Part shown: piece by piece, positions 4,176 through 15,187 of the stretch
How positions within the stretch are numbered: position 1 is the first letter of the stretch
How the letters are laid out: each line of letters starts with the position of its first letter
Origin: an uncultured Peptococcaceae bacterium
GTDB lineage: Bacteria; Bacillota; Peptococcia; Peptococcales; Peptococcaceae
Assembly (NCBI GenBank): GCA_900552455.1
Contig: URZX01000039.1
Coordinates: 1 to 17,187 of the forward strand
Reading direction: 5' to 3'
Length of the DNA stretch: 17,187 nucleotides
Position numbers and translations under genes: made by a program
The notes under the pieces: generated by a model
Told to the model about the DNA's origin: nothing
Seen by the model: only the letters and a program-made list of their open reading frames with translations
Databases searched by the model: none

Positions 4176-4216
4176 AATCGGCGCTGCAGACGATCGCTTT
4201 GTCTGCAGCGCCGATT
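4176..4216 (+). terminator. Strong terminator of the DUF368 gene
   Basis: A perfect 16-bp stem pairs 4176-4191 with 4201-4216 around a 9-base loop, just after the stop codon. The T tract is modest (TTGTT). It also shields the gene from the convergent small RNA array. Confidence 0.8.
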
Positions 4217-4228
4217 TGTTATGATACG

Positions 4229-4385
4229 AAAAAACGACAGCCGGAGAGATGCTGTCGTTTTTCTGTGGCTTTCGACCAGTCGCGGAAAAAAGGGAGAGAG
4301 AAAAAAACGCGACCGTGTCGAATGGTTTCTCGGGATAAACAGCTGAGGTGTTGAAAGGGGGGAAAAACAAACTTCCTCAACTGCT
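4229..4385 (-). ncRNA. Putative small RNA, tandem copy A
   Basis: This is the fourth and last copy in the direction of transcription. The predicted start is near 4385, 7 bases after TATAAT (plus coordinates 4392-4397). Hairpin 1 pairs 4375-4383 with 4340-4348 (CAGUUGAGG/CCUCAGCUG, one wobble), with a loop holding a CCCCCC run. Hairpin 2 pairs 4317-4322 and 4308-4313 with 4271-4276 and 4279-4284; its 23-base loop is U-rich with CUCUCUCCC. Terminator: 4251-4262 with 4229-4241, loop AUCUCUCCG, ending in six U. There is no plausible ORF. The family is unknown to me. The call rests on the shared layout of four copies. Confidence 0.7.
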
Positions 4386-4391
4386 GTGCTT

Positions 4392-4423
4392 ATTATAGCG
4401 CAAAATGCAGCGCCAGATGTGCG
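4392..4423 (-). promoter_or_regulatory. Promoter of small RNA copy A
   Basis: The -10 TATAAT is at 4392-4397 (read on the minus strand). A CGCACA box at 4418-4423 lies 20 bp upstream, at the position where the other copies have CYGACA. The spacer is longer than the sigma-70 optimum, so the upstream box may be a weak -35 or a regulator site. Confidence 0.55.
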
Positions 4424-4474
4424 GAATTAATAAAGAAGCTTATAAGCAATTATGAAGAATCCTGTTACTAAAAT

Positions 4475-4638
4475 AAAAAAAACAGCAGCGGGAGAGACGC
4501 TGCTGTTTTTCGGACTCGTTGGCGCCTGGCATCGCGAAAAAAGGGGGAGAAAAAACACATTGCCAAACGCTTTAATGATGAACGGATTTGTCTCAGTTGG
4601 GTGTAGAAAAAAGGGAGAAAAAACTCACCTCAACTGAC
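4475..4638 (-). ncRNA. Putative small RNA, tandem copy B
   Basis: The predicted start is near 4638. Hairpin 1 pairs 4631-4636 with 4594-4599 and 4626-4629 with 4600-4603; its loop contains UUUUUUCUCCCUUUUUU. Hairpin 2 pairs 4561-4570 with 4522-4531 (two wobbles) plus a 4-bp inner stem; its loop is UUUUUUCUCCCCCUUUUUU. Terminator: 4498-4510 with 4478-4490, a 13-bp stem, loop UCUCUCC, then a U run. The 5' end shares CAGUUGAGG with copy A. ORFs overlapping it on either strand are low-complexity and cover the hairpins, so they are not credible genes. Confidence 0.72.
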
Positions 4639-4644
4639 ACCGTT

Positions 4645-4676
4645 ATTCTAGCACAAAACATTCCCGGGGTTGTCAG
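4645..4676 (-). promoter_or_regulatory. Promoter of small RNA copy B
   Basis: The -10 TAGAAT at 4645-4650 is preceded by TGC (extended -10). CTGACA at 4671-4676 lies 20 bp upstream. The context TTTTGTGC before the -10 is the same as in copy C. Confidence 0.6.
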
Positions 4677-4745
4677 GAAAAATTGAAGAACCCGCAAAGA
4701 AATTGCCAAGTCGATATGAAGAGCAGCTCCATAATCTCCGACACG

Positions 4746-4915
4746 CAGAAAGACAGCCGCGAGAGGGAATCGCGGCTGTCTTTCTGTGTTGCTTATTGCT
4801 CTGGAAAATTGAGGCTCATCCGGTCGTGAAAATAAGGGAGAAAAACACGACCAGATGGTGATGTGGCTCAGCTGGGATGTGAAAAAAAGGAAGAAAAAAA
4901 CGCATCTCAGCTGTT
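4746..4915 (-). ncRNA. Putative small RNA, tandem copy C
   Basis: The predicted start is near 4915. Hairpin 1 pairs 4901-4913 with 4869-4881 (CAGCUG outer stem, GAUG/CAUC inner stem); its loop is U-rich with a CUUCC core, the only copy with UUCC there. Hairpin 2 pairs 4846-4857 with 4817-4828 over 12 bp (one wobble); its 17-base loop holds UUUUUCUCCCUUAUUUU. A linker follows, then a 16-bp terminator stem (4771-4786 with 4746-4761) with loop AUUCCCUCU. The U tract after the terminator is poor. Confidence 0.72.
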
Positions 4916-4921
4916 GCACTT

Positions 4922-4954
4922 ATTATAGCACAAAATCCCTAGCGAGAATGTCGG
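4922..4954 (-). promoter_or_regulatory. Promoter of small RNA copy C
   Basis: TGCTATAAT on the minus strand (-10 at 4922-4927) is a full extended -10. CCGACA at 4949-4954 lies 21 bp upstream within TTTTCCCGACA, a block shared with copies B and D. Confidence 0.65.
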
Positions 4955-4994
4955 GAAAATGTGAATATTCTGGGTGAAAGTCGTCATTTTTTCG

Positions 4995-5182
4995 CAAAAA
5001 AATTGGAAACGACAGAGCCGAGGGGATAGTCTGTCGTTTCCAGGCTTAGGAAAGTAAGCGTTTTCTGCTGTAGCCTTGTGGAACCGCCGTATCGAAAAAA
5101 GAAAGGAGAAAAGAAAAAAACTGGCGATCCCTGTGTCTCACGGCGCCAAAAAGGGGGAGAAAAAACGCGCGCTTTTGAGACA
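4995..5182 (-). ncRNA. Putative small RNA, tandem copy D
   Basis: This is the first copy in the direction of transcription and the most diverged. Hairpin 1 pairs 5176-5183 with 5133-5140 (GUGUCUCA type, 8 bp) plus an inner GCGC stem; its loop holds UUUUUUCUCCCCCUUUUU. Hairpin 2 pairs 5123-5130 with 5080-5088 less perfectly; its long loop contains UUUUCUCCUUUCUUUUUU. A third small stem (5055-5059 with 5044-5048) lies in the linker. Terminator: 5031-5042 with 5004-5015, 12 bp, loop with AUCCCCUC, then seven U. It follows the dehydrogenase-like gene on the same strand but is separated from it by a terminator and has its own promoter. Confidence 0.68.
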
Positions 5183-5187
5183 CTTAT

Positions 5188-5219
5188 AGTGTAGCACAGC
5201 GGCGGTGCGCAGGTGTCGG
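5188..5219 (-). promoter_or_regulatory. Promoter of small RNA copy D
   Basis: TGCTACACT on the minus strand (-10 TACACT at 5188-5193) is an extended -10. CCGACA at 5214-5219 lies 20 bp upstream. The -10 matches the consensus less well than in copies A and C. Confidence 0.5.
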
Positions 5220-14353: not shown

Positions 14354-15187
14354 ATGGATCTCACACTCTTAGGCGCATTGGACACCGGGATGATCATCCA
14401 ATATCTCTTCGTCCTCGTCATGCTCGTTGCCATGGAAGGGCTGCTCTCCGCCGACAACGCCCTCGTGCTCGCCGTCATGGTGCGGCCGCTGGCGCCGAAT
14501 CTGCGTCAGAAAGCGTTGTTCTACGGTCTCGTTGGGGCTGTCGTGCTGCGTTTCGTCGCGCTCTTCTTCGTCTCGTTTCTCGTCAATATCTGGCAGGCGC
14601 AGGCCATCGGCGCAGCGTATCTGATCTACGTCGGGCTGCACAACATCTACAAATACCAGAAAGCCAAGGCCGAGACCGGCCAGGAATCTTCCAAAGAAAA
14701 ACTGCCGGAAGATCCTGAGCGCAATTACATCTACAGCAAAAAAGAATTCTGGAAAGTTGTTGCCAAGGTCGAGATCACAGACATCGCCTTCGCCGTCGAT
14801 TCCATTCTCGCAGCCGTTGCGCTCGCCATCTCCCTGCCTGAGACAGGCTGGGGCCACATCGGCGGCATGGACACCGGTCAGTTCCTCGTCGTGCTCATCG
14901 GTGGTCTCTGCGGCGTCGTGCTCATGCGTTTTGCCGCCACGATCTTCGTCAAGCTTCTTGACAAACGTCCAAAACTCGAGCTCGCCGCTTTTCTGCTCGT
15001 CACCTGGGTCGGCGTGAAGCTCATCATCGTCACCCTCGCCCATCAGAATGTCGCCATCCTGCCGCATGATTTCCCAGAATCCACCCTCTGGCACGTCATC
15101 TTCTACGGCATGATGCTCGTCATCGCTCTCTGGGGCTGGTTCTCATCCAAGCCAAAGGAAGAATCTGCCGACAGCGACGCAAAATAA
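14354..15187 (+). CDS. TerC family membrane protein, probable Mn2+ exporter (copy 1)
   Basis: The protein has 277 residues with seven to nine membrane segments. The two TerC half-repeat signatures are intact: EGLLSADNALVLAVMV with E28, D34 and N35, and EITDIAFAVDSILAAVA with E140, D143 and D149, which form the metal path. TerC proteins such as Bacillus YkoY export manganese and help load metal onto secreted enzymes. The upstream Mn2+ riboswitch supports manganese as the substrate. A charged cytoplasmic loop lies at about 100-130. The start follows AAAGGAG. It forms a tandem pair with the next gene, roughly three quarters identical by eye. Confidence 0.92.
   Translation: MDLTLLGALDTGMIIQYLFVLVMLVAMEGLLSADNALVLAVMVRPLAPNLRQKALFYGLVGAVVLRFVALFFVSFLVNIWQAQAIGAAYLIYVGLHNIYKYQKAKAETGQESSKEKLPEDPERNYIYSKKEFWKVVAKVEITDIAFAVDSILAAVALAISLPETGWGHIGGMDTGQFLVVLIGGLCGVVLMRFAATIFVKLLDKRPKLELAAFLLVTWVGVKLIIVTLAHQNVAILPHDFPESTLWHVIFYGMMLVIALWGWFSSKPKEESADSDAK

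Follow-up and report, generated by a model that had tools for sequence, protein, structure and literature searches.

A tandem array of four putative small-RNA genes with predicted anti-Shine-Dalgarno loops in a Peptococcaceae-like bacterium

The minus strand of the window (the whole stretch of 17,187 nt that was analysed) was found to carry, between positions 5196 and 4229, four divergent copies (A−D) of one unit composed of an extended -10 box, a 5' hairpin, a second hairpin and a terminator-like third hairpin. The four tandem units are likely to correspond to separate small RNAs of ~155−190 nt, predicted to repress translation by means of C/U-rich loops that act on Shine-Dalgarno regions. 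A preliminary description of this DNA had proposed four related small-RNA genes, and the proposal is well supported at sequence level by the -10 boxes, by significant folds, by covariation and by homologues in a second genome (G434); an anti-Shine-Dalgarno mode of action is considered likely for their predicted products.

The array region (4229−5219) is flanked by a plus-strand DUF368-type gene, the protein of which is VCA0040-like and falls under the Pfam name 'undecaprenyl phosphate translocase-like', and by the minus-strand gene of an iron-containing alcohol dehydrogenase (ADH). The four related units, with the -10 box and the first and second hairpins originally described, lie on the minus strand (Table 1). 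The starts of successive -10 boxes are 253, 277 and 266 nt apart from A to D, and in each box a TATAAT-like hexamer is preceded by TGC or CGC. The pattern [TC]GCTA.A[AC]T occurs seven times on the two strands of the window, four of these being the unit starts and three lying on the plus strand outside the array, and it occurs 178 times in the 1.86 Mb of G434. The first stem begins 4−8 nt past the -10 box in copies A−D; in copy D the stem starts about 4 nt after the -10 box, so that the outermost pairs of its hairpin 1 may precede the transcript start. The identical 5' end claimed for copies A and B is indeed present in both as CAGTTGAGG, with likewise sharing between two G434 copies.

Table 1. 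Positions of the array units, their hairpins and upstream boxes, and of associated genes in the window.
Feature	Position	Strand	Details
OmpR-type two-component pair	171−2298	+	near the array; order kept in G434
Copy A	4229−4400	-	-10 box CGCTATAAT at 4400−4392
Copy A hairpins		-	hairpin 1 ~4384−4339; hairpin 2 4322−4271; terminator hairpin ~4263−4230, then U-tract
Weak upstream box variant, copy A	4418−4428	-	AATTCCGCACA, four mismatches; 20 nt before TATAAT
Copy B	4474−4653	-	-10 box TGCTAGAAT at 4653−4645
Copy B hairpins		-	hairpin 1 ~4640−4592; hairpin 2 4570−4522; terminator 4511−4477 with U-tract
Upstream box, copy B	4671−4681	-	TTTTCCTGACA; 20 nt before TAGAAT
Copy C	4740−4930	-	-10 box TGCTATAAT at 4930−4922
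Copy C hairpins		-	hairpin 1 ~4914−4870; hairpin 2 4857−4817; third hairpin 4789−4743 without U-tract
Upstream box, copy C	4949−4959	-	TTTTCCCGACA; 21 nt before TATAAT
Copy D	4995−5196	-	-10 box TGCTACACT at 5196−5188
Copy D hairpins 1 and 2		-	hairpin 1 ~5183−5133; hairpin 2 ~5131−5080
Copy D 3' part		-	small extra hairpin ~5076−5042; terminator ~5041−5004; U-tract from near 5002
Upstream box, copy D	5214−5224	-	CTTTCCCGACA, one mismatch; 20 nt before TACACT
Iron-containing alcohol dehydrogenase (ADH) gene	5346−6527	-	upstream of the array, same strand
NlpC/P60 protein with Cu_amine_oxidN1 (stalk) domain	9755−11587	+	predicted target

The host had initially been placed in the Negativicutes, a placement that is not supported; the host looks Peptococcaceae-like, ADH and DusB both being nearest to Peptococcaceae among named records. 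The nearest named record for ADH is a 'Peptococcaceae bacterium' MAG (70% identity), and DusB showed 85% identity to the same MAG and 59% to Peptococcus simiae; the matches closer than these named records are metagenome proteins, which for ADH reach 85−99% identity. Among 46 genomes of one class, only G434 was found to hold an ADH at E ≤ 1e-60. This homologue, 70% identical, adjoins two copies of the unit, G1 and the divergent G2, and the G434 locus preserves the succession of two-component pair, DUF368 gene, ..., ADH, an insertion of ~9 kb separating the DUF368 gene from the RNA region. A blastn search of G434 with the array also gave a match (E = 2.6e-5) next to the same dehydrogenase gene. 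G434 holds three copies at two places, G3 being located on the minus strand of another contig (C102, L082 7146−6970), where it was found with R1, a covariance model made from A, B, C and G1 (E = 3.9e-8). Besides the copies found by blastn and by R1, the model R2, built from all seven copies, recovered a third at E = 1.1e-6, itself among the sequences used to build that model. G3 is followed directly by a same-strand sigma-70-family gene and then by a 203-codon ORF. Only ~190 bases separate it from the end of the contig, and additional copies may be missing where the assembly breaks off.

A covariance-model search, as the preliminary description had suggested, yielded convincing copies in G434 and none elsewhere in the 46, 21 and 398 Bacillota genomes. 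The R1 model matched in one of the 46 genomes of the class (G434), and R2 in two of the 21 genomes of the order (G434 and, weakly, G429) and in one of the 398 genomes of the phylum (G434 again), the last search having used stricter filters that lose weak matches. The weak R2 match in G429 (E = 0.047) is a TATAATAA promoter without the stem and was rejected as a look-alike. The search for ADH in 299 Bacillota genomes returned distant dehydrogenases only, and no ADH relative was found in the viral contigs; 29 viral contigs fit the promoter-plus-stem pattern, and R1 gave no match in them at E ≤ 0.01. The neighbours of DUF368-type proteins were inspected at 48 loci (40−52% identity), none of which was usefully syntenic, with one weak R1 match (E = 0.16). 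No family of Rfam 15 matched the array, the window containing one tRNA at gathering score, and at a threshold of E = 10 whatever Rfam matched in the array or in G1−G2 scored far below the cut-off of its family; the earlier remark that the units belong to no named RNA family thus holds for Rfam 15. We take the copies to form a new, lineage-specific family of small-RNA genes arranged in tandem, their reading as RNA genes being strong at the sequence level.

The copies also share features upstream of their predicted starts. The 45 nt upstream of the -10 box presented a mean pairwise identity of 0.416, compared with 0.268 (sd 0.014) for shuffled sequences, none of 2000 shuffles being as high. An upstream box, TTTTCCYGACA, is exact in B, C, G1 and G3; D departs from it at one position and A at four, and G2 lacks it. 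The box sits 20 nt (21 nt in C) before the -10 hexamer. It is matched exactly at six sites in the 1.86 Mb of G434, but a suitably placed -10 box accompanies it at G1 and G3 alone. The scan for canonical sigma-70 promoters returned no sites in the array region. The box is interpreted as a putative activator site overlapping the -35 region, and the OmpR-type pair, with its response regulator at 1612−2298, is, by its neighbourhood alone, a candidate regulator of the array.

The predicted transcripts are more stably folded than dinucleotide shuffles, with MFE z-scores of −5.5, −8.3, −9.3 and −4.0 for A, B, C and D, respectively, a range of −4.0 to −9.3 over all seven copies of the window and G434, and, for the four window copies, −2.6 to −6.6 over the first 115 nt alone. 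The observation that stems differ between copies with pairing kept was substantiated by several measures. In hairpin 1, 91.3% of the cells were paired across the seven copies, compared with 29−51% in slid control structures, and the covariation score was reached in four of 500 shuffles, in an alignment that was fitted to the covariance model and is hence biased towards structure; two-sided changes were found in 4 of the 11 pairs and rest on seven sequences. Covariation was counted on hairpin 1 only, because the whole-unit MAFFT alignments misplaced hairpin 2, which was evaluated by arm swaps instead. The stems of hairpin 2 have almost no sequence conservation, and pairing with their own arms gave a mean of −18.3 kcal/mol versus −7.3 kcal/mol for swapped arms, the own arm being the best in 7/7 rows; the corresponding values were −16.3 and −9.2 for hairpin 1 (own best in 4/7 rows) and −23.9 and −9.5 for the third hairpin (7/7), in a test where the diagonal is favoured, the arms being taken from each unit's own fold. 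Independent shuffling of the 20-nt flanks gave p ≤ 0.015 for 13 of the 14 hairpins. Hairpin 1 of G2 was the exception (p = 0.73), because the loop definition took in one of its arms.

The intrinsic terminator attributed to each copy could be retained for B, the only one of the four units flagged on the minus strand by the terminator scan, and for A and D, the U-tracts of which were recognised by eye. It could not be retained for C, where a strong 20-pair stem is followed by GCGTGT, with no U-tract, and was flagged by the scan on the plus strand only; transcription of C may thus stop by some other means or continue into B.

Hairpins 1 and 2 of each unit present C/U-rich loops of 13−29 nt, a typical large loop reading UUUUUUCUCCCUUUUUU. 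The loops vary in length and C-count among the copies, with UCC kept in the large loops throughout (14 of 14 over the seven copies) and present in five of the seven third-hairpin (terminator-type) loops (absent from those of G1 and G2); UCCC itself is not found in every loop. A scan of the 1.86 Mb of G434 for similar hairpins under loose rules gave 97 candidates, five of them being large hairpins of G1, G2 and G3, which have six in all; the remaining candidates were mixed, and by eye many had weaker stems or overlapped gene-start complements. When the G434 loops were compared with gene starts, called with a preference for Shine-Dalgarno sites, matches of at least 8 nt were found in 288 of 1325 start regions versus 21 of 1325 gene-internal control stretches (+120 to +148). 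Permuted G434 loops gave 216.6 such matches (sd 55.5), 23 of 200 permutations being as high as the real loops, and for the window loops 38 of 200 permutations were as high in start-region matching. Permuted loops being nearly as good, the arrangement of the C and U residues contributes little; the matches support loops that can bind Shine-Dalgarno sites, and they do not prove a specific design.

The first target list, ranked by energy, was headed mostly by transporters, Nuo-type and other genes, with no clear family, and many secreted proteins stood out in the G434 loop-match list. Twenty G434 stalk-domain (Cu_amine_oxidN1) genes, found by searching with the stalk domain of the window and with a signal-peptide-like start in 19 cases, gave a loop-match AUC of 0.82 (p = 3.4e-7), this set having been noticed in the match list first and tested afterwards (post hoc). 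Permuted loops gave an AUC of 0.69 (sd 0.06) on the same genes, with two of 150 as high as the real loops, and the 16S tail gave 0.60, while the A-content of the start region alone separated the stalk genes with an AUC of 0.77, and duplex energy with AUCs of 0.68 (G434's own loops) and 0.62 (window loops). After the removal of similar start regions, the 15 non-redundant stalk start regions gave p = 2.9e-5. The family was not preselected in a scan of 143 overlapping BLAST neighbourhoods, and stalk genes predominated in each of the 14 best (best p = 6.8e-8); that their start regions match the loops best is partly due to these being A-rich. DASS-type transporters came second (p = 1.3e-3, a value that does not survive correction for the 143 neighbourhoods), and G434 has transporter neighbourhoods of 15−19 genes, an expanded family that we take to be DASS-like. 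According to Pfam, seven of the matched G434 genes are Cu_amine_oxidN1, also an expanded family with 29 matches in that genome in all. In relatives without the RNA, none of the 14 stalk start regions reached a 9-nt match versus 10 of 20 in G434, these 14 being the starts obtained from 27 loci tried, and several of them doubtful. Within the window, the NlpC/P60 gene, the one stalk-domain gene among the eight window proteins first scanned with Pfam, showed the strongest predicted loop pairing of the 15 called ORFs (−20.1 kcal/mol; next −19.7 kcal/mol). The suggestion that the main targets would be mRNAs of secreted stalk-domain proteins is the most tentative part of the interpretation.

Other explanations were weighed against translational repression. 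The near-equal fit of permuted loops to the start regions would also suit a sponge, in which the C/U loops of the minus-strand RNAs bind a protein or another RNA without pairing to mRNA, and the eight near-identical presentation loops per array resemble a multi-site logic. However, loop length and C-count differ between copies with UCC kept, Shine-Dalgarno sites fit the loops far more often than gene interiors do, and Hfq was not found in either of the two genomes searched (G434 and its fellow relative G100; it was found in 5 of 14 genomes in the control), and a sponge is regarded as unlikely. On the opposite strand, the complement of UCC places GGA in the loops, as would be fitting for a CsrB-like RNA that titrates CsrA; this idea is scarcely credible and was rejected, since an extended -10 box is present on the minus strand in 4/4 units and on the plus strand nowhere in the array, and CsrA was not found in G434 or G100 (control: 3 of 14 genomes).

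The head-to-tail arrangement of the copies, the divergence of D and G2 and the missing U-tract of C are what might be seen in a repeat element or in decaying duplicates without RNA function, a very unlikely reading in view of the compensatory change, the folding z-scores, the box at a fixed distance and the survival in a second species, and no match to the array was found in the plasmid and phage collections. It is likewise highly improbable that the units serve genes downstream as leaders or attenuators, or that they encode small peptides, as in type I toxin-antitoxin systems: the position of G3 before the sigma-factor gene would agree with a leader and the closed ORFs of C and D (29 and 45 codons, respectively) with a peptide, but the next gene downstream of the window array lies on the opposite strand, and no ORF is conserved across the copies, A, G1 and G3 having none of at least 12 codons.

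Under the preferred reading of the units as anti-Shine-Dalgarno small RNAs, each copy would have its own transcript start and end, and one activator reading TTTTCCYGACA would turn the copies on together. The 5' hairpin would protect the RNA, and the loops would serve as anti-Shine-Dalgarno sites without Hfq, the copy number setting the dose and the differences between loops widening the target range; most tentatively, the A-rich start regions of stalk-domain mRNAs might fit CUCC(C)UUUUUU. A farther-reaching proposal, possible if doubtful, envisages an Hfq-free, lineage-specific array in which the loops evolved in concert with the ribosome-binding sites of a single large set of paralogous, secreted stalk-domain proteins. 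The Shine-Dalgarno region would then mark the family like a barcode, and the number of RNA gene copies would determine how strongly the whole family is repressed at once.

Multicopy RNAs with comparable loops have been described in other bacteria. The LhrC family of Listeria monocytogenes consists of seven members (LhrC1−5, Rli22 and Rli33-1) of 105−121 nt with two stem-loops, several copies lying side by side and more elsewhere, and with C-rich loops followed by a U-run, the terminator loop included (PMC4132741, PMC8079631). These loops are reported to pair with Shine-Dalgarno regions, the target interaction is Hfq-independent and several targets are surface proteins (PMC4132741, PMC8079631). 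The choice of LhrC as the closest analogue agrees with the present results insofar as both are multicopy and partly side by side (here four copies in the window and three in G434 at two places) and share redundant C-rich loop motifs that extend to the terminator loop, and the targets predicted here are secreted proteins. The array RNAs, in contrast, are of ~155−190 nt with three hairpins, have another promoter box and come from a Peptococcaceae-like host with Hfq not found in the relatives searched, and LhrC was absent from the Rfam matches obtained for the array and for G1−G2 at E values up to 10. As far as sequence can say, they would work like LhrC, yet they are not LhrC members, because of the lack of a family match and the different size, hairpin number and promoter.

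Induction of LhrC proceeds via the LisRK two-component system. The csRNA/Ccn small RNAs of streptococci are described as five highly similar siblings under one response regulator (CiaRH), which the array resembles in the upstream box common to its copies; it differs in that two large hairpin loops carry the motif and in that no such family appeared among the Rfam matches up to E = 10, where the only streptococcal name was SpF25 (E = 3−8, far below the cut-off). The Cuckoo RNAs of alphaproteobacteria are multicopy and display anti-Shine-Dalgarno loops; the array, also multicopy and with loops that fit Shine-Dalgarno sites, may resemble them and belongs to another phylum. The only related-looking Rfam trace, ar15 at G1 (E = 0.053; 21.5 bits versus a cut-off of 40), was attributed to chance. 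Among Bacillota, RoxS/RsaE and further small RNAs with a UCCC motif are described as binding Shine-Dalgarno regions with a C-rich motif (PMC4132741). Such a motif is found here too, without an Rfam match to RoxS/RsaE and in genes that are tandem and multicopy. CsrB/RsmY-type sponges of CsrA differ in that the GGA loops of the array are on the plus strand and its -10 boxes on the minus strand.

The literature search returned no paper combining Peptococcaceae, small regulatory RNA and sRNA. Multicopy anti-Shine-Dalgarno RNAs are already known from Listeria, streptococci and alphaproteobacteria, and a separate family in a Peptococcaceae-like lineage, with neither Hfq nor CsrA found in the relatives that were searched, would suggest that the same device was invented independently more than once. 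The stalk-protein regulon is offered as a testable proposal, one that would give a first handle on the post-transcriptional control of many secreted stalk-domain proteins.

Among the other features of the window, a perfect 16-bp inverted repeat was observed at 4176−4216, right after the DUF368-type gene, of which it is likely the terminator. Two tandem TerC-family genes, with PF03741 in both according to Pfam, are located on the plus strand at 14354−15187 and 15286−16110.
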